Made by a program: the position numbers and the translations under genes. The notes beneath the pieces are model-generated. The model did not search any database and was not told the origin of the DNA. It saw only the letters and a list, made by a program, of their open reading frames with translations. Positions 1,604 through 15,876 of a stretch of DNA of 64,000 nt are shown here, one piece after another. How positions within the stretch are numbered: the stretch's first letter is position 1; each line of letters starts with the position of its first letter. The DNA is from Candidatus Methylomirabilota bacterium (GTDB lineage: Bacteria > Methylomirabilota > Methylomirabilia > Rokubacteriales > CSP1-6): contig DASTFB010000083.1 of assembly GCA_035709005.1 (NCBI GenBank), positions 62,001-126,000 on the forward strand. The letters run 5' to 3'.

Positions 1604-2599
1604 ATGACCTCTGTCGTGGTCGGGGTCGACGTCGGCGGAACGACGACGGCTGCCGGCGCGGTGACCGGGCGGGGCGAGGTGTTGATCGAGGAGCGTGCTC
1701 CAACTCACGGCGACGGCCCGGGGACTGCCGGACGGACCATCGTCGGGCTCATCGAGTCGATCCTCGACCGCGCCGCCGACCTCGGGCTGCGCCCGAGCGC
1801 GATCGGCGTCGGGTTGCCCGGCATCGTGGATCCGGCGAGTGGAGTCATCGGCGAGGAGGCTCCGCACGTCTTCGATCTCCAGGGTCAGCCTTTGAGACAG
1901 AAGCTTGCCGATCGGTTTCGATTACCAGCCTATATCGATAATGATGTCAATGCGTTAGCCATTGGAGAATATGTTTTTGGTCAAGGTATAGGTGCTCGTT
2001 CTCTGGCCGTTCTGGCTGCCGGGACGGGGTTCGGGGCCGGCATCATCCTGGACGGGCACCTGGTCCGTGGCGTCCGCGGCTTCGGCGGCGAGTTCGGCCA
2101 CGCGCCGGTGAAGTTCGACGGGCGAGCCTGTTGGTGCGGTGGCCGCGGGTGTCTGGCGGTGTACGCCAGCGGCCGCGGCATCGCCGAGGCCGGGCAGGAA
2201 CGGGCGGGCCCGGACGCGAGCAGTGAGTTGCTGCGTCTGGCCGGGGGAGATCCTGGCGCCATCACGGCCCCGCTCGTCTTCCAGGCGGCTGCCTCGGGCG
2301 ACCCCGTGGCGACGGGTATTGTCGAGGAGGCGTGCCGCGCGCTCGGGGCGGGTATCGCCGTCATCGTGAACGGTCTGAACCCCGAGGTCGTGGTGATCAC
2401 GGGCGGCGTCGCCGCCGCCTACGCGCCGCTGGAGAAGCGCGTGCTGGCCGCCGCTGCCGAGCACGCCTTCCCCCGGGCGCTGGTCGACACGAGGGTGAGC
2501 ATCGTGCCGGGCGACAAGCGCCACAGCATGCGGGGAGCCGCGGCCCTGGTGCTCTACGAGACGCGGGGTGGGCAGCGACCCCCGGGAGGGCAGCGATGA
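1604..2599 (+). CDS. ROK family sugar kinase (glucokinase-like)
   Basis: A 331-residue ATP-dependent sugar kinase of the ROK family. The ATG at 1604 was chosen because it directly precedes the phosphate-binding segment VVVGVDVGGTTTAAG; upstream in-frame codons lie within the preceding gene. GLPGIVD, IDNDVNALAIGEY and AAGTGFGAGII are typical ROK blocks. The zinc motif CWCGGRGCL is present, but the Glu that normally follows in CxCGxxGCxE, a sugar-contact residue, is replaced (GCLAVYAS), so specificity may differ. Bases of about 1885-1995 are unusually AT-rich for this genome although the protein there is highly conserved. The stop overlaps the dehydrogenase start (ATGA). Confidence 0.88.
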   Translation: MTSVVVGVDVGGTTTAAGAVTGRGEVLIEERAPTHGDGPGTAGRTIVGLIESILDRAADLGLRPSAIGVGLPGIVDPASGVIGEEAPHVFDLQGQPLRQKLADRFRLPAYIDNDVNALAIGEYVFGQGIGARSLAVLAAGTGFGAGIILDGHLVRGVRGFGGEFGHAPVKFDGRACWCGGRGCLAVYASGRGIAEAGQERAGPDASSELLRLAGGDPGAITAPLVFQAAASGDPVATGIVEEACRALGAGIAVIVNGLNPEVVVITGGVAAAYAPLEKRVLAAAAEHAFPRALVDTRVSIVPGDKRHSMRGAAALVLYETRGGQRPPGGQR

Positions 2600-3648
2600 A
2601 GGCCATCACGTTCCATGGGGTGGGCGACGTGCAGGTCGACGACGTCGCGGATCCGAAGATCGTCGATTCCGCCGATGTGGTCCTGCGCATCACCACCAGC
2701 GCGGTGTGCGGCTCGGACCTGCACCAGTACCACGGCCGGGGCGGCGGCCTCGTCGCCACCGGCGCCGTGATGGGGCACGAGTTCATGGGCGTCGTGGAAG
2801 AAGTGGGCCCGGCCATCCGGAGCTTGCGTCCCGGCGACCGCGTCGTGGCACCGTTCTCGGTCTCCTGCGGTCGCTGTGAGTGGTGCCAGCGGAGGCTGCC
2901 CACGCAGTGCACCACCACGGGGCGGGCCGTCTTCGGCGGCCGCTTCGGCACGATCTTCCCCGGCGGGCAGGCCGAGCGCATCCGCGTGCCCTTCGCCGAT
3001 CACCTGTGCGAGAAGCTGCCGGCCGGCATGTCGGACGAGGACGCGCTATTCCTGGGCGACATCCTCTCCACGGGCTACTGCTGCGCCGAGAACGGCGGCA
3101 TCCGTCCCGGCGACACCGTGGCCGTCTTCGGCGCCGGCCCCGTCGGGCTCCTGGCCATGCAGTCCGCCCAGCTCTTCGGGCCGGCCCGAGTCTTCGCGGT
3201 GGATCGCGTCGACTACCGGCTGGCTCTGGCCCGTGACCTCGGCGCCGAGCCCGTCGACCTCGAGCGCGGCGATCCCGCCGAGCAGCTACGGGCCCAGACC
3301 GGCGGCTGGGGGCCCGATGTCGTCCTCGAGTGCGTGGGCCACGAGACGCCCTTCACCCAGGCCATCCAGGCGGTGAGGGCGGGCGGAGTGGTCTCGTCGG
3401 TCGGCGTCTACGTCGAGCCGAGCATGGGGTTCCCCGCCCGGGAGGCGTTTATCAAGGACCTCACGCTCAAGATGGGCATCTGCAACGCCCGCAACTACAT
3501 CACGCCCCTGATGAAGCTGGTCGCCCTGGGCAAGCTCCGGCCCGCGCGCATCATCACCCACACCATGCCGCTCAAGGACGGCCCCCGCGGTTACGCGATC
3601 TTCGACCGCAAGGAAGACCGGGCGGTGAAAGTGCTGTTGAAGCCCTGA
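2596..3648 (+). CDS. zinc-dependent medium-chain alcohol dehydrogenase
   Basis: A 350-residue MDR-superfamily dehydrogenase. Catalytic zinc ligands are visible as C38 and H61-E62 (GHE). The structural zinc lobe has C91, C94, C97 and C105 (CGRCEWCQRRLPTQC), and a GAGPVG loop begins the NAD(P)-binding fold in the second half. The resemblance is to the threonine/sorbitol/formaldehyde dehydrogenase group; the exact substrate cannot be read from the sequence. It starts with ATG overlapping the kinase stop and ends the operon. Only 4 bases separate it from the convergent acetyltransferase gene. Confidence 0.88.
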   Translation: MKAITFHGVGDVQVDDVADPKIVDSADVVLRITTSAVCGSDLHQYHGRGGGLVATGAVMGHEFMGVVEEVGPAIRSLRPGDRVVAPFSVSCGRCEWCQRRLPTQCTTTGRAVFGGRFGTIFPGGQAERIRVPFADHLCEKLPAGMSDEDALFLGDILSTGYCCAENGGIRPGDTVAVFGAGPVGLLAMQSAQLFGPARVFAVDRVDYRLALARDLGAEPVDLERGDPAEQLRAQTGGWGPDVVLECVGHETPFTQAIQAVRAGGVVSSVGVYVEPSMGFPAREAFIKDLTLKMGICNARNYITPLMKLVALGKLRPARIITHTMPLKDGPRGYAIFDRKEDRAVKVLLKP

Positions 3649-3652
3649 GGCC

Positions 3653-4189
3653 TCAGGCGATCACGCGGGCATAGACGTAACAGTCGCGCGGGTGGGCCGA
3701 CAGATTGGGGTGCACGATCCAGCGCCGCAGCATGCCCTCGCGCGACATGCCGAGCTTCTCGAGCACCCGCGCGGACGCCACGTTCTCGACGTCGCACACG
3801 GCCCACACGCGATAGATGCCCGAGAGGCCCGTCGCCCAGCCGACGACCGCCCGGCCCGCCTCGGTGGCATAGCCGAAGCCCCAGCTCGCCCTGGCCAGGG
3901 CGTAGCCGATCTCGGCGGCGTGACCGCGGATGCGGCAGGCGATCGAGCCGACCACCTGATCCCGTTCCTTGAGCCCGATGACCCAGCAGTACTCCTCGCC
4001 GGACCCCCAGCGCTGGCCGCAGCCGGCAAGGAACCGCTCGGCGTCGGCCCGCGACCGATGGGTCTGGAAGATGAGGTATCGCGTCACCGCGGGGTCGCGC
4101 CCGTACTCGTACACGGCGTCGGCGTCCGCCCGTCGAGGACGGCGGAGCAGCAGGCGCTCGGTCGTGAGCGTGTCAGGAGGGCGGATCAT
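3653..4189 (-). CDS. GNAT family N-acetyltransferase (RimJ/RimL-like)
   Basis: A 178-residue protein that opens with the RimJ/RimL-type strand TERLLLRRPRRADADAVYEY and contains the acetyl-CoA-binding region around GYALARASWGFGYATEAG, followed by a C-terminal EKLGMSREG segment typical of this GNAT branch. Such enzymes acetylate N-terminal amines of ribosomal proteins or small molecules; the target is unknown. The ATG overlaps the stop of the HNH protein gene by 4 bases (ATGA), so the two are translationally coupled. Confidence 0.85.
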   Translation of the reverse strand: MIRPPDTLTTERLLLRRPRRADADAVYEYGRDPAVTRYLIFQTHRSRADAERFLAGCGQRWGSGEEYCWVIGLKERDQVVGSIACRIRGHAAEIGYALARASWGFGYATEAGRAVVGWATGLSGIYRVWAVCDVENVASARVLEKLGMSREGMLRRWIVHPNLSAHPRDCYVYARVIA

Positions 4190-5637
4190 TCGTCGACGTC
4201 GCCAGTGGGCGGTGATCCGTTGGCTCGCGGATGCAAGACGTCGATCGCCCAGCGGACATCGAGGCGCTCTCCGAGCCAGCCGGGGCCGGAGGTCCTTGGA
4301 TGGATGTTGAGCCCCTGCGCGGCGTGGTGTGAGCGAAGGGCGTGCGCCGGGTCGGTCGGCACTGCGGCTGGCGGCGGGACTTCCGGGAGGAGCCGCCCGT
4401 CGGGCCGCCGGAACCGGAGCGTGCCGTCGGGCTGTCGATCGACCTGGAAGCCCTCCTCGTGGACCGCCCGGTGGTGCCGCCGACAGAGCAGCGTGAGGTT
4501 CGAGAGCGTCGTCGGGCCGCCCTGAGCCCAGTGGCGGATGTGGTGCCCCTGGCCGAAGGGGACGCCGCAGCCCGGGAAGCGGCAGCTGCGATCGCGATGC
4601 TGGAGTGCTCTCCGTAGGGCGGGTGGAATCGTGCGCGTTCGGGCACCGACTTCCAGCAGGCCGCCGTCCTGGTCGTGGCGCATGATCACCCGGGTGGCGT
4701 CGCAGGCCAGGCGCTGGGATGTTTCCGCGGAGAGGCGTGTGCCCTCCTCGAGGACGGACTGGCGGGGCGCATCGGCGTCCGCCAGGACGTCGGCATCGAC
4801 GTGCACGACAACTTGATAACGCTCGCCCGGGGCCCCGAGATCGAGCCCGTGGTGCAGGGCGGTCTCGGCCAACAGCGCCAGGGCGTCGGCCTGCTGCTGG
4901 GCCAGCGTGGAGGTGTCGGGGTGCGGTGCACCCCAGAAAACCACCGGAGACGTTCCCGCGGGAACGTCCACCGGAAGCGTTCCCTCGGGAACGTCGCCCG
5001 GGCTGGTGTCGCCTCGATCGGCGCGCTCGTGTCCGCCTGCGCGCGCTTTCTGATACAGCGCCTCCCGGGCCGCGGCCAGCGCCTGCATGACCAGGGCGCC
5101 GACCTCGGGCTCCAACCGCCCCCGCAGGACGACCATGCCGTCTTCGTCGTAATACACGTGCAGGGCCCGGCTCTTGTGCCGCTGGGCGGCTTCCTGTGCT
5201 TCGGCCTGCCGGTCGACCTTACGCCAGCCCCGCACGATGCGCTCGACGTGTTCGGCCGTCCCGGCCCGCCCGACGGCCAGCAGCCGCTCTTCCGTTTCCG
5301 GGGTCGCCACCCGGGTCAGGGCCCGGACCTTCGAGTACGAGAGCTCCCCACGGGCGAGCGCCTGGGCCAGCAACGGTAAGGTTCCCAGGGCGCGGGCCAC
5401 GCGCACGTGCTCGCGGGCGGCGCCAGGAGCGAGGCCGATCCGCCAGGTCAACCAGTGGGCGCAGGACTTGAACCCGTTGCTCCAGCCGCCGAGGGCATCG
5501 AACTCGCGTATCAGGTCGAGCAGGCGGGCAGTCGCAGCATCCAGGTGAGCCGCCAACTCGGCGATCTCGTCGCCCAGCCGGTCGGGCTCTGCGGTGCGAT
5601 CGTCAGTGGGAACACGAATCGGCGAGTGAATTCCCAT
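4186..5637 (-). CDS. DUF222 domain protein with C-terminal HNH endonuclease domain
   Basis: A 483-residue protein. The N-terminal half is a DUF222-type helical domain (blocks around SNGFKSCAHWLTWR and ARALGTLPLLAQALARGELS). Near residues 350-395 a zinc-type HNH module is visible: CRFPGC, GQGHHIRHWAQGGPTTLSN and LCRRHHRAVHEEGF. Proteins of this 13E12/REP-like class are abundant in actinobacteria and some other GC-rich soil bacteria; their role is unresolved, with mobility or DNA processing suggested. Between the domains is a short Pro/Gly/Thr linker with two copies of a 9-residue repeat (for example TLPVDVPAG). It is probably the first gene of a two-gene unit with the GNAT gene. Confidence 0.85.
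   Translation of the reverse strand: MGIHSPIRVPTDDRTAEPDRLGDEIAELAAHLDAATARLLDLIREFDALGGWSNGFKSCAHWLTWRIGLAPGAAREHVRVARALGTLPLLAQALARGELSYSKVRALTRVATPETEERLLAVGRAGTAEHVERIVRGWRKVDRQAEAQEAAQRHKSRALHVYYDEDGMVVLRGRLEPEVGALVMQALAAAREALYQKARAGGHERADRGDTSPGDVPEGTLPVDVPAGTSPVVFWGAPHPDTSTLAQQQADALALLAETALHHGLDLGAPGERYQVVVHVDADVLADADAPRQSVLEEGTRLSAETSQRLACDATRVIMRHDQDGGLLEVGARTRTIPPALRRALQHRDRSCRFPGCGVPFGQGHHIRHWAQGGPTTLSNLTLLCRRHHRAVHEEGFQVDRQPDGTLRFRRPDGRLLPEVPPPAAVPTDPAHALRSHHAAQGLNIHPRTSGPGWLGERLDVRWAIDVLHPRANGSPPTGDVDE
4950..4993. repeat. two 27-bp-spaced near-palindromic repeats inside the HNH gene
   Basis: ACGTTCCCGCGGGAACGT at 4950-4967 is a perfect palindrome. CGTTCCCTCGGGAACG at 4978-4993 is a near copy 27 bases on. 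The spacing equals nine codons, so the protein gains a 9-residue tandem repeat without a frame change. The DNA symmetry is stronger than the protein repeat requires. Confidence 0.7.
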
Positions 5638-11683: not shown

Positions 11684-12721
11684 TCAAGGCTGGAAGCTGG
11701 CGAGCCGGATCTCGGCCAGCACGGCGTCGGGCACGCAGAGGAAGGAGGCGACCACGGCGGGGTCGAAGTGGCTGCCGGCGCAGCTCTGAATCTCCCGCTT
11801 GGCCGCGTCGAACGAGATCGCCTTCGAGTACGGGCGGTCGAACGTCATGGCGTCGAAGGCGTCGACCACGCTGAAGATGCGGGCCCCCAGGGGAATGACC
11901 TCGCCCTTGAGCCCTTGCGGGTAGCCGGTGCCGTCCCACCGCTCGTGATGGGAGTACACGATGGGCACCGCGCCCTTGAGGAACGGGATGTTCTCGATGA
12001 GCCGCTTGCCGATATCGGGATGCCGCCGCATGATCGCCCACTCTTCGGGGGTCAGCGCGCCGGGCTTGAGCAGGATGTGGTCGGGAATGCCGATCTTGCC
12101 GATGTCGTGCAGCAGCACGCCGTGGGCGAGGTCGACGAGCTCCTCGTCGCTCAGGCCGTGCTGCCGCGCGGTAGCCAGCGCGTAGCCGTGCACCCGCCGG
12201 GAGTGCGCCTCGGTGCCGACGTCGCGGGAATCCAGCGCGGCGCCCAGGGTTTCCAGCGTCGCGCGGTAGGTGTCCTGCAGCTGGCGATAGGCTCGTTGCA
12301 GATCCCGGGTGGCTTCGTCGACCCGGCGCTCCAGCCGCACCTGATACTCGCGCCGGTCCACGAGGAGCTGGCGGCGCTCCAGGGCCCGTTCGGCGGCGAT
12401 GAGCAGCTCGTCGACGTTGACCGGCTTCACGATGAAGTCGTCGGCGCCCAATCTCAAACTTTCGATGGCGGTCGTCACGTCGGGGGCCCCGGTGAGCACG
12501 ATGACGGCGGCATCGCGGTCGAGCGCCCGGATCCCGCTGAGCACGGCGATGCCGTCGAGCTCCGGCATCCGGAGGTCCATCACCGTCAGCGCCGGCCGCG
12601 ACTCGGTGAAGGCGGCCAGGCCCTCCTGACCATTGCTCGCGTGCAGGCAGTCATAGCCGGCCGACAGGAAGACCTGATGCAACAGCGTCCGCACATGAGC
12701 GTCGTCGTCGACGACCAGCAC
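11684..12721 (-). CDS. response regulator with HD-GYP phosphodiesterase domain
   Basis: About 345 residues. The receiver domain begins VLVVDDDAHVRTLL, with the phospho-acceptor Asp in LTVMDLRMPELDG and Lys in DDFIVKPVNV. A coiled linker (EYQVRLERRVDEATRDLQ) leads to the HD-GYP domain: LLHDIGKIGIPD, PEEWAIMRRHPDIG and HHERWDGTGYPQG, all the residues expected of an active c-di-GMP phosphodiesterase. I give the GTG at 12721. A CTG at 12742 would overlap the cyclase stop (CTGA) and restore a more normal N-terminus, so it may be the true start. It lies directly downstream of a diguanylate cyclase with the opposite activity. Confidence 0.85.
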   Translation of the reverse strand: MLVVDDDAHVRTLLHQVFLSAGYDCLHASNGQEGLAAFTESRPALTVMDLRMPELDGIAVLSGIRALDRDAAVIVLTGAPDVTTAIESLRLGADDFIVKPVNVDELLIAAERALERRQLLVDRREYQVRLERRVDEATRDLQRAYRQLQDTYRATLETLGAALDSRDVGTEAHSRRVHGYALATARQHGLSDEELVDLAHGVLLHDIGKIGIPDHILLKPGALTPEEWAIMRRHPDIGKRLIENIPFLKGAVPIVYSHHERWDGTGYPQGLKGEVIPLGARIFSVVDAFDAMTFDRPYSKAISFDAAKREIQSCAGSHFDPAVVASFLCVPDAVLAEIRLASFQP

Positions 12722-12738
12722 CTGCCGGCGGTGTGCGT

Positions 12739-13695
12739 TCAGAGGATCTTCTCCGGCGAGTCGGTGGTGGCCACCTGATTCTTGCCGGCGCGCTTGGCCG
12801 CGTAGAGCGCCTCGTCGGCGGCCCGGACCAGCTCCTCGGCGCTGGCGGCGTCGTCGTCGGGCAGGCTGGCCAGCCCGAAGCTGGCGGTGAGGGGCTTGCC
12901 GTGGGCGAAGGCGTGAGTGGAGACGACGTGGCGGATGCGGTCGGCGTACAGGCGGGCCCCCGCTCGCGAGGTCTCGACCAGGAGGACGACGAACTCGTCG
13001 CCCCCATACCGCGCCACGACGTTGATCCCACGCGAGTGCTTGACCAGGATCTGGGCCACGTCCCGCAGCGACTCGTCCCCGACGGCGTGCCCCAGCTCGT
13101 CGTTGACGGCCTTGAACCCGTCCAGGTCCATGAGCACGACGGAGACGGGATGATTGAAGCGCCGGTGCCGCTGCATCTCCTCCTCGAGCCGGATGGAGAA
13201 GAAACGGCGGTTGTAGAGGCCGGTGACTTCGTCCTTGAACGACGTCTCCTTCAGACGGGTGTTGGTGTTCTCGAGCTCCTTGTAGGCGGCGTCCAGGCGG
13301 GAGGCGAAGCTGTTGATCTCGCCCGCCTGCTGCTCGATCGTCTCCAGCATCCGGGCGATGGTCTGCATCAGCGTGCCGGCCTCGCCACGGCGCTCGGCCA
13401 GCTCGCCCAGACGCCCCTCCTCGCCGAGCATCCGGGCCACGCGGGCCACCGTGCGCCCGATGTCCCACACCATATAGCCGCCGGCGACGATGGCCAGCGC
13501 GGTGAAGAGGAACAGGCCCAGCAACCCGAAGAATTCGGCGCTACCGAGCGGGCTCAAGGACGGCAGCACGAACCGGTGGGTGACGTACGCCAGGACGAGG
13601 AGCGGGATGATGGCGACGAGGCCGAGGGCGACGAGGACCTTGTGGCTGAGCCGCTGGCCTGCTTCCGCCACGTCGGACGGGGGCTTGGCCGGCAT
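12739..13695 (-). CDS. membrane-bound diguanylate cyclase (GGDEF)
   Basis: A 318-residue protein with two N-terminal transmembrane segments (around VLVALGLVAIIPLLVLAYV and LLGLFLFTALAIVAGGYMV), a HAMP-like helical linker, a coiled coil, then the GGDEF domain with an intact YGGDEF active site. It should make c-di-GMP at the membrane. The inhibitory I-site, normally RxxD five residues before GGDEF, reads RGIN here, so product inhibition may be weak or absent. Promoter elements TTGACA and GACAAT lie just upstream, the latter 6 nt from the ATG. Confidence 0.87.
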   Translation of the reverse strand: MPAKPPSDVAEAGQRLSHKVLVALGLVAIIPLLVLAYVTHRFVLPSLSPLGSAEFFGLLGLFLFTALAIVAGGYMVWDIGRTVARVARMLGEEGRLGELAERRGEAGTLMQTIARMLETIEQQAGEINSFASRLDAAYKELENTNTRLKETSFKDEVTGLYNRRFFSIRLEEEMQRHRRFNHPVSVVLMDLDGFKAVNDELGHAVGDESLRDVAQILVKHSRGINVVARYGGDEFVVLLVETSRAGARLYADRIRHVVSTHAFAHGKPLTASFGLASLPDDDAASAEELVRAADEALYAAKRAGKNQVATTDSPEKIL

Positions 13696-13701
13696 ATGGG
13701 C

Positions 13702-13731
13702 ATTGTCTCGGGTGTTGCTGCGAAGTGTCAA
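13702..13731 (-). promoter_or_regulatory. sigma-70-type promoter of the diguanylate cyclase gene (leaderless)
   Basis: On the minus strand, TTGACA (13731-13726), an 18-nt spacer and GACAAT (13707-13702) are followed by 6 nt and the ATG at 13695. Transcription should begin at or next to the start codon. This is the best-formed example of the leaderless arrangement in the window. Confidence 0.6.
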
Positions 13732-13843
13732 TGTCCAGAGGTCGGCCGGGCCAACTCCCCGGAAAGACTCGACAAGTCCGTTTCGGGCCCGCCGTCGGCC
13801 GGTTGCGCTCGGCCGCCGGTCGGTGTCAGAATGTCGGTGCACG

Positions 13844-14080
13844 ATGCTCCTCACACCCGACAAGAAGCTCGATTGCATTGGTCTGTTCTGCCCGATGCCA
13901 GTCCTCAAGGTTCGGGAGGCGCTCACGACGATGGCCGAAGGCCAGGTGCTGGAGATGCTCGCCGATGATCCCGCCGCCGAGGCGGACCTCAAGAGCTGGT
14001 CCGCCCGCACGGGGCACCAGCTCCTGGTGGTGGACAAGGATGGGCCCGTCTTCCGCTTCCTCGTCCGAAAGACCAAGTAG
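13844..14080 (+). CDS. tusA: TusA family sulfurtransferase
   Basis: A 78-residue protein with the hallmark LDCIGLFCPMPVLKVREAL; the CPxP cysteine carries the persulfide. TusA proteins accept sulfur from cysteine desulfurases and pass it on for tRNA thiolation, molybdenum cofactor or energy metabolism. The ATG at 13844 gives the usual family length. The next gene, 22 bases downstream, is a desulfurase homologue, which would be its natural donor, but that protein lacks the PLP-binding lysine. Confidence 0.88.
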   Translation: MLLTPDKKLDCIGLFCPMPVLKVREALTTMAEGQVLEMLADDPAAEADLKSWSARTGHQLLVVDKDGPVFRFLVRKTK

Positions 14081-14102: not shown

Positions 14103-15242
14103 GTGTACCTGGACTACGGCAGCTTCACCCCTGTCGACCCGCGAGTGGTCGCGGTCATGCGGCCGTTCCTGGAGGGGGGCGCCGGCAACCCGTCGGCGCC
14201 GCACTCGCTGGGCCTGGAAGCGCGGGCCTCGCTGGACGGCGCCCGGGCCAAGATCGCCCGACTCTTCGGCGGCGCCCCCGCGGGCATCATCTTCACCGCC
14301 AGCGCCACCGAGGCCAACAACCTGGCGGTCAAGGGGACCGCCCTGCGCACGCCGGTGCGCCACGTCGTCACCTCGGCCGTCGAGCATGTCTCCGTCCTCA
14401 ACCCGTGCCGGGACCTCGAGAAGCACGGCTCCCCCGTCACCTATGTGGGGGTGAATCACGAGGGTCGGGTCGAGCCGGCCGCCGTGGAGCGGGCTCTGCG
14501 GGACGACACGACGCTCGTCTCGATCATGGCCGCCAACGGCGAGATCGGCGCCGTTCAGCCGCTGCGCGAGATCGGCCTGATCACTCGGCGCCGGGGCATC
14601 CCGTTTCACGTCGACGCCGTCCACGCCGCCGGTCGGCTGCCGCTGTCGGTCGACGAGTGCGGGATCGATCTGCTTACCCTCTCTTCCAACGACCTCTACG
14701 GCCCTCCGGGCGCCGGGGCGCTCTGGGTGCGGCCGGAGGTGAGGCTGGCGCCCCTCATCCTGGGTGGCGGTCAGGAGCGCGGCTACCGCGCAGGCACGGA
14801 GAACCTGCCGGCCATCGTGGGCATGGGCGTGGCCGCCGAGCTGGCCCGCGTGGAACGCGTCGGGGAGTCGACGCGCCTGACCGCCCTGCGCGATCGCCTG
14901 ATAAACCAGCTGCTGGACCGGGTGACCGGCGCCGGCCTGACCGGCCCGCGCGCCGAGGCGCGCCTGCCCCACCACGCCAGCATCGTGGTCCCGGGGGTCA
15001 AGGCGGAGGCGCTGCTGCTCGAGCTCGATCTGCGTGGGGTGGCGGTGTCGTCGGGTTCGGCCTGCACCACGATGACGGGCGAGCCCTCGCACGTGCTGCG
15101 GGCCATCGGCTGCGACCGCGAGGCCTCCGAAGGGTCGCTGTGCTTCACGCTGGGGCGGTGGACCACGGCCGCCGAGATCGACTTCACGCTGGACGTCCTG
15201 CCTGGCATCGTCGAGCGCCTGCGCCGGCTGGCGCGGGGCTAG
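14103..15242 (+). CDS. NifS/IscS-like aminotransferase-fold protein lacking the PLP lysine
   Basis: A 379-residue protein with clear cysteine desulfurase architecture: SATEANNLAVKG, AVEHVSVLNPC (His contacting PLP), HVDAVHAAG (Asp kept, the usual Gln replaced by His) and ERGYRAGTENLPAIVGMG. The mobile catalytic cysteine is kept in SSGSACTTMTGEPSHVL (C321). The Schiff-base lysine, expected in the S-x-H-K-x-Y-G-P block, is absent: the sequence is SSNDLYGPPGAGALW with D197 in place of Lys. Without it normal PLP chemistry should fail. It could be a non-catalytic partner or use another mechanism. The GTG start lies 22 bases after tusA. Confidence 0.8.
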   Translation: MYLDYGSFTPVDPRVVAVMRPFLEGGAGNPSAPHSLGLEARASLDGARAKIARLFGGAPAGIIFTASATEANNLAVKGTALRTPVRHVVTSAVEHVSVLNPCRDLEKHGSPVTYVGVNHEGRVEPAAVERALRDDTTLVSIMAANGEIGAVQPLREIGLITRRRGIPFHVDAVHAAGRLPLSVDECGIDLLTLSSNDLYGPPGAGALWVRPEVRLAPLILGGGQERGYRAGTENLPAIVGMGVAAELARVERVGESTRLTALRDRLINQLLDRVTGAGLTGPRAEARLPHHASIVVPGVKAEALLLELDLRGVAVSSGSACTTMTGEPSHVLRAIGCDREASEGSLCFTLGRWTTAAEIDFTLDVLPGIVERLRRLARG

Positions 15243-15244
15243 CG

Positions 15245-15436
15245 ATGCCGCTGCAGCGCTCCCGCCGCCACCGGATGATCGCCGGCGTCTGCGGGGGCCT
15301 CGCCGAGTGGCTGGGATGGGATCCCACGCTGGTGCGGGTGCTCTACGTGCTCGTCTCGATCCTGTCGGCGGCCTTTCCGGGCATTGTCGTCTACCTGTTG
15401 CTCTGGATCATCATGCCCCGGGCCCCGGCGGAGTGA
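15245..15436 (+). CDS. PspC domain membrane protein
   Basis: A 63-residue protein with the PspC consensus: a basic start, then MIAGVCGGLAEWLGWDPTLVRVLYV and one hydrophobic segment ending YLLLWIIMPRAP. In E. coli PspC is a membrane partner in the phage-shock response; stand-alone short PspC proteins occur in many bacteria. It follows the desulfurase-like gene by 2 bases and overlaps the next gene by GTGA, so it belongs to the same operon. Confidence 0.85.
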   Translation: MPLQRSRRHRMIAGVCGGLAEWLGWDPTLVRVLYVLVSILSAAFPGIVVYLLLWIIMPRAPAE

Positions 15437-15876
15437 GGCTGTTCGCGCTCTGGGTTCACGTGCTCGGCGCGGTGGTCTGGCTGGGCGGGCTCGTGTACCA
15501 GATCCATGTCGTCGGTCCGCGGGCCGGGCAGGCGCGGACCTTCGCCGAGGCCGCCCGGGGCGCCCGCCCGTACGCCTGGACGGCCCTCGGGCTGACCACC
15601 CTGACCGGGTTCTACAACGTCACCCGCCTGGGTCCGCTGGAGCGTGTCATGGAGAGCGGCGCGGCCCTGCTCCTGGCCGGCAAGTTCCTTCTGGTCCTGC
15701 TCATCGTCGCGCTCGCCGCTCAGCGCGACTTCGCCCAGATCCCTCGTCTGGCCCGGGTACTCACGGCGGGCGAGGATCCCGGGCCGGCCCTGGCGGCGAT
15801 CGGCTGGCTCGATCGCATCGCCATGCTGCTCGGTGTCATCGTCGTCTATCTGGGGTTGGCCATCTCCCGGAGCTGA
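15433..15876 (+). CDS. CopD-like four-helix membrane protein
   Basis: A 147-residue protein with four predicted transmembrane segments. It begins LFALWVHVLGAVVWLGGLVYQ, the His-containing first helix typical of CopD/DUF4149-like proteins, and later has LLLAGKFLLVLLIVALAAQ and a final helix AMLLGVIVVYLGLAISRS. Conserved histidines could bind heme or copper, but the role is uncertain. It is the last gene of the tusA operon and converges on npdG with an 11-base gap. Confidence 0.7.
   Translation: MRLFALWVHVLGAVVWLGGLVYQIHVVGPRAGQARTFAEAARGARPYAWTALGLTTLTGFYNVTRLGPLERVMESGAALLLAGKFLLVLLIVALAAQRDFAQIPRLARVLTAGEDPGPALAAIGWLDRIAMLLGVIVVYLGLAISRS

Follow-up and report, generated by a model that had tools for sequence, protein, structure and literature searches.

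A lysine-less IscS homologue linked to tusA in the Rokubacteriales and its possible role in relaying persulfide sulfur

Introduction

Cellular sulfur traffic is taken, as a general rule, to begin with cysteine desulfurases, minimal ISC systems being described as including one (PMC12192291), and annotation names such proteins by their fold. What, then, might a protein with this fold do when the lysine that would bind PLP is missing and the gene for the sulfur carrier TusA lies directly upstream? The question is raised by a locus in the window (the whole stretch of 64,000 nucleotides analysed here) from a Candidatus Methylomirabilota bacterium of the Rokubacteriales, for which a first-pass annotation had proposed that a conserved lysine-less lineage would point to a non-PLP sulfur-binding scaffold or to a new activity. 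The lysine loss itself is already known from Archaeoglobus fulgidus IscS, which has the same SSND motif and is reported to be without desulfurase activity, the lysine being aspartate (PMC7585200).

Results

An IscS fold with altered catalytic positions

Translation of positions 14103–15242 on the forward strand of the window, together with Pfam, AlphaFold2 and Foldseek, identified a 379-amino acid IscS/NifS homologue with a GTG start and the motif SSNDLYGP at residues 194–201. When this was aligned with Escherichia coli IscS, whose numbering is used for the sites below, three signs of a group I cysteine desulfurase were found to be absent: Asp197 (codon 14691–14693) takes the place of the PLP lysine Lys206, His174 (14622–14624) that of Gln183, and Cys347 (15141–15143) that of the substrate-binding Arg354, while Asn196 (14688–14690) lies at the His205 site. 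Three others are retained as Cys321 (15063–15065), the persulfide cysteine of the mobile loop equivalent to Cys328, His95 (14385–14387), equivalent to His104, and Asp171 (14613–14615), equivalent to Asp180; all of these codons are on the forward strand. The alignment agrees with the first-pass annotation both on the three NifS/IscS residues kept and on the Asn–Asp and Gln-to-His replacements. The cysteine in place of Arg354, which that annotation did not mention, is found in every Rokubacterial sequence. The phosphate-cup residues Thr76, Ser203 and Thr243, as well as Asp180, are largely kept amongst the Rokubacteria in the same alignment.

The protein falls short of the NCBIfam equivalog cut-offs for both NifS (409.6 of 530.75 bits) and IscS (359.9 of 643.2 bits). 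An AlphaFold2 model based on an alignment of 48 relatives has a pLDDT of 92.9, and the top Foldseek matches to this model are the A. fulgidus IscS structures with a TM of about 0.95.

In E. coli IscS the substitutions K206A, Q183E and H104Q each abolish desulfurase activity; the R354K mutant is still active, and Cys, Leu and Val at this position lie outside that study (PMC9978102). As Lys206, the PLP-contacting Gln183 and the cysteine-carboxylate-binding Arg354 are all gone, the window protein should be unable to extract sulfur from cysteine, and we infer the loss of PLP chemistry from the inactivity of these mutants and of A. fulgidus IscS. We consider it very probable that the window protein has an IscS fold without PLP-dependent desulfurase function.

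Conservation within the Rokubacteriales

An orthologue is present in 35 of 39 Rokubacteriales genomes, with one copy in each (E ≤ 1e-120), and at this threshold none was found in 21 other genomes of the class. The Asn–Asp pair, the loop cysteine, Cys347 and the adjacent tusA are kept in all 29 orthologous loci from other genomes (L100–L128), and the codons at the Asp197 site are GAC or GAT. Pairwise dN/dS values amongst the orthologues do not exceed 0.40 (median 0.24), indicating purifying selection. Close homologues which all kept the lysine would have spoken for an error or a single decayed gene; instead, the Asn–Asp pair is read in 29/29 orthologous loci, and the comparison of gene neighbourhoods which had been suggested for such homologues finds tusA at each of them. 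The conserved lysine-less lineage that had been anticipated is thus borne out by the 35 genomes, and by a wider clade with a support of 100/99 described below.

The gene neighbourhood

The 78-amino acid TusA is encoded at 13844–14080 on the forward strand, separated by 22 bp from the IscS-like gene that follows. It matches Pfam PF01206 with 86.4 bits (cut-off 28.6) and has the CPxP cysteine, and it misses the NCBIfam TusA equivalog cut-off (67.8 of 78 bits). The persulfide cysteine, equivalent to E. coli TusA Cys19 (codon 13889–13891, forward strand), is conserved in 54/54 Rokubacterial and 13/13 other linked TusA proteins (the 54 Rokubacterial sequences of our residue comparison come from two collections which partly overlap). 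Downstream, and also on the forward strand, are genes for a 63-amino acid PspC-domain protein (15245–15436; PF04024) following a 2-bp gap, and for a CopD-like membrane protein (15433–15876; PF05425) which overlaps the PspC gene and is kept in 19 Rokubacterial loci, CopD and HAD neighbours being a Rokubacterial feature. All three neighbours named in the first-pass annotation were therefore found by Pfam, but only tusA is a constant partner; pspC was not detected beside the Rokubacterial orthologues, only in the window. We note that divergent GGDEF diguanylate cyclase and response-regulator/HD-GYP genes (11684–13869, reverse strand) lie upstream of tusA, and are found in the same place in many Rokubacteria. 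The same genome also encodes lysine-containing NifS/IscS paralogues (L002 and L004) and, elsewhere, iscU genes.

Linkage of tusA with lysine-less iscS genes

In the genome_contigs collection plus the window, tusA lies immediately upstream at 25/25 Rokubacterial loci, none of which was found to have an iscU within the flanks that were fetched (at most 6 kb). Amongst the other lysine-less loci of this collection, tusA is present in the fetched flanks of 13 of 25, compared with none of 31 lysine-containing loci. A similar contrast was seen when one archaeal phylum was sampled evenly: amongst its 30 best-matching loci, tusA occurs within 1.5 kb of 20/24 lysine-less and 0/6 lysine-containing loci (Fisher p = 0.0004, which is only indicative as the test ignores relatedness). 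It should be noted that the lysine-less loci with tusA come from one deep clade and are not phylogenetically independent, that an independent-pairs test of lysine loss against tusA had only two pairs and so no power, giving no significance, and that between a sixth and a half of the lysine-less loci outside the Rokubacteria have no tusA nearby.

Lineages differ in where tusA is placed. The order is tusA–iscS*–iscU in archaea and Nitrospirota (iscS* being the lysine-less gene; in Nitrospirota it follows an Rrf2 regulator), and ApbC–iscS*–iscU–ThiI-like–tusA in Aquificota. Chloroflexota and Actinomycetota (L034, L038, L039, L042 and L049) have iscS*–iscU–small zinc-ribbon protein–DsrE2–tusA–rubrerythrin, possibly a dedicated sulfur-delivery and Fe–S operon. 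Most Archaeoglobi lysine-less loci are linked to tusA, and the second A. fulgidus copy (L244, 87% identical) has tusA upstream and iscU downstream. As the linkage persists despite these rearrangements, it argues for a functional tie between tusA and the lysine-less iscS. We found no report of this link in the open-licence literature searched, which is weak evidence of absence.

An ancient lysine-less clade

Taking the sites His104, Asp180, Gln183, His205, Lys206, Arg354 and Cys328 in this order, the signature is HDQHKRC in 47/47 lysine-containing relatives (which include the probably engineered protein of PDB 9wep). In every member of the lysine-less clade Gln183, Lys206 and Arg354 have been lost together while His104 and Cys328 are kept, and the Lys206 site is occupied by Asp, Gln, Tyr, Leu, Ser, Thr or Arg. 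The members come from Archaeoglobus, Methanoperedens, Bathyarchaeota, Rokubacteria, Chloroflexota, Geothermincola (Actinomycetota), Nitrospirota, Aquificota and Desulfarculaceae. In a tree without PDB 9wep the lysine-less sequences form one side of a branch with a support of 100/99, and the clade is ancient. A grouping of A. fulgidus IscS, other archaea and the Rokubacteria was likewise supported at 100/99. Neither the joint loss with Cys328 and His104 kept nor the invariant Cys347 of the Rokubacteria has apparently been reported before, in so far as absence from the open-licence literature searched is evidence, which is weak. In some methanogen lysine-less IscS proteins (L235, L240 and L242) the Asp180 site is Asn, which changes the contact with the pyridine nitrogen of PLP as well.

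Our first tree and an AU test had indicated several independent losses of the lysine, but we dropped this interpretation as an effect of the lysine-bearing 9wep being nested amongst lysine-less Aquificota sequences. PDB 9wep, 9wer, 9wew, 9wf8, 9wfb, 9wfe and 9wfy are entries for an Aquificota-like cysteine desulfurase which varies at the Gln183, Asn155, Lys206 and Arg354 sites. We left 9wep out of the tree because these entries differ stepwise at exactly the catalytic sites, and with this the clade becomes single. Judged from the sequences, the series looks like a deliberate conversion between lysine-less and canonical states; a paper on it was not found in the open-licence literature searched.

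A second and separate loss in the ISC operon

The window's own genome also has an ISC operon with the order IscR–IscS–IscU–IscA–HscB–HscA–Fdx, in which the IscS (G000:C87:173854-175077, reverse strand; L162 8852–10078) has Gln at the His104 site and Leu at the Lys206 site. This gene was found in 23 genomes of the window's family (L165–L187), and all 23 have Gln together with Leu or Met at these two sites, whereas His and Lys are both present in the genes read from three genomes in other families of the order and from four in families further away within the class. The gene has a median dN/dS of 0.15. An AU test rejects a single origin for this loss and that of the TusA-linked clade (p = 4e-6), and we regard it as an independent and recent loss of desulfurase residues in a housekeeping operon, for which we found no earlier report in the open-licence literature. 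The loss may mean something different here, because Gln183 and Arg354 are retained; the protein may, as one example, depend on a lysine-containing NifS downstream, which is present at every ISC locus that reaches far enough. In L162 this NifS is accompanied by NifU-like and serine acetyltransferase-like genes (about 2300–4199), and the ISC operon and the downstream NifS are separated by a DsrE-family gene in the opposite orientation.

Discussion

A putative persulfide relay

The explanation we lean towards, and consider moderately probable, is that the window protein is a desulfurase-dead IscS which takes persulfide from TusA on Cys321 and relays it onward. No PLP internal aldimine would form in such a protein, there being no Lys206 to form it. 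TusA, encoded directly upstream, would dock in the manner known from canonical IscS, and its persulfide sulfur would pass to Cys321 in a reversal of the usual IscS-to-TusA transfer, leaving the dead IscS to act as a persulfide relay and as a docking platform for an acceptor. This acceptor would be IscU in archaea and many bacteria, feeding Fe–S assembly; in the Rokubacteria it would be a protein not encoded next door, and Cys347 in the emptied pocket would perhaps serve as a second thiol. Both the way in which the sulfur flows and the existence of such an acceptor in the Rokubacteria are hypotheses.

In the E. coli IscS–TusA complex Cys328 is about 4 Å from TusA Cys19 (PMC2854127). Two residues of the E. 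coli salt-bridge network have counterparts in the Rokubacteria, with the IscS Asp52 site acidic in 54/54 sequences and TusA Arg27 kept in 51/54, but the interface residues IscS Trp45 and TusA Phe58 are not kept, and from these comparisons the docking of TusA on the lysine-less IscS is plausible. The canonical desulfurases of the same genome could supply TusA, or could do the work alone.

An alternative is that the A. fulgidus model alone applies, in which the protein makes up half of a cluster-assembly scaffold and gives a cysteine ligand to a [2Fe–2S] cluster on a U-type scaffold, with sulfide coming from solution and TusA being a passenger or part of another pathway. The motif and fold are the same, the loop cysteine is described as a cluster ligand in the A. 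fulgidus IscS–IscU complex (PMC7585200 and PMC5176006), and in archaea and many bacteria the next gene downstream is iscU. We nonetheless think this unlikely, as the Rokubacterial loci have tusA without exception and iscU in none of the 25 sets of flanks, and the Archaeoglobi themselves, including the second A. fulgidus copy, mostly have the tusA linkage.

In another reading the protein is a regulatory pseudoenzyme: by titrating TusA, or by pairing with an active NifS/IscS paralogue in mixed dimers, it would steer sulfur whilst carrying none. Lysine-containing paralogues are present both here and in most of the bacterial genomes that have a lysine-less gene, and IscU and TusA are described as competing on E. 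coli IscS (PMC11302665). However, Cys328 is invariant in all lysine-less sequences, which is not expected of a pure decoy, and some archaeal and Nitrospirota genomes have no other strong NifS/IscS match (these assemblies may be incomplete), so that we find this explanation quite doubtful.

It is improbable that PLP is held without a Schiff base and that Asp197 or another residue acts as the base in a slow desulfurase or other PLP reaction. The largely conserved phosphate cup and Asp180 would suit this, some PLP remains bound to E. coli K206A (PMC9978102), and the title of PDB 4hvk describes the A. fulgidus protein as an 'unusual L-cysteine desulfurase'; set against these, three catalytic positions have been lost together, single mutations at two of them (K206A and Q183E) are enough to kill the E. 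coli enzyme, and the title of a later paper, cited in PMC7585200, states that A. fulgidus IscS has no desulfurase activity. A sequencing error or decaying gene is rejected by the presence of the gene in 35/39 genomes, by the Asn–Asp pair and loop cysteine in all of those read, and by dN/dS values of no more than 0.40.

The non-PLP sulfur-binding role offered in the first-pass annotation is therefore favoured by the evidence, and a new activity is not needed, since the A. fulgidus archetype has been crystallised (4eb5 and 4hvk), has the identical Asn–Asp pair and is reported as inactive (PMC7585200).

Possible sulfur entry by relay

A deep archaeal and bacterial clade in which the chemistry is lost, the persulfide cysteine is kept and tusA is usually linked suggests that Fe–S sulfur may be delivered by relay, and makes TusA a concrete candidate sulfur donor for IscS–IscU of the A. 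fulgidus type. More tentatively, TusA and the lysine-less IscS might be an ancient and widespread entry of sulfur to Fe–S assembly in which the sulfur does not come from cysteine at the IscS step, with TusA fed by DsrE2, other sulfurtransferases or another desulfurase, and the output going to IscU in archaea, Chloroflexota and Nitrospirota or to an acceptor via Cys321 and Cys347 in the Rokubacteria. The second, independent loss in a complete ISC operon would place a recent case beside this ancient one.

Comparison with known systems

The closest counterpart is A. fulgidus IscS (4eb5, 4eb7 and 4hvk, with the D199K mutant as 4r5f), which shares its fold, SSND motif, loop cysteine and clade with the window protein, as well as the losses at Gln183 and Arg354, at 44–45% amino acid identity. 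It is archaeal and has iscU next door, whereas the Rokubacteria have no adjacent iscU, tusA directly upstream, and Cys rather than Leu at the Arg354 site. Methanosarcina acetivorans IscS1 is likewise reported to have no catalytic lysine and has been suggested to work in the way of A. fulgidus IscS (PMC7585200). PDB 9wfy is lysine-less (AHLMYGP, with Pro at the Gln183 site and Val at the Arg354 site) and closest to the Aquificota members of the clade, while the other entries of the 9wep–9wfy series have Lys, Gln or Arg at exactly those sites, apparently by design. E. coli IscS with TusA (3lvj) has the same fold, the Cys328 loop and TusA as a partner, physically in E. coli and as a gene neighbour here, but the E. 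coli enzyme is PLP-dependent and gives sulfur to TusA, whereas for the window protein, without these catalytic residues, any flow between the two would have to run in reverse.
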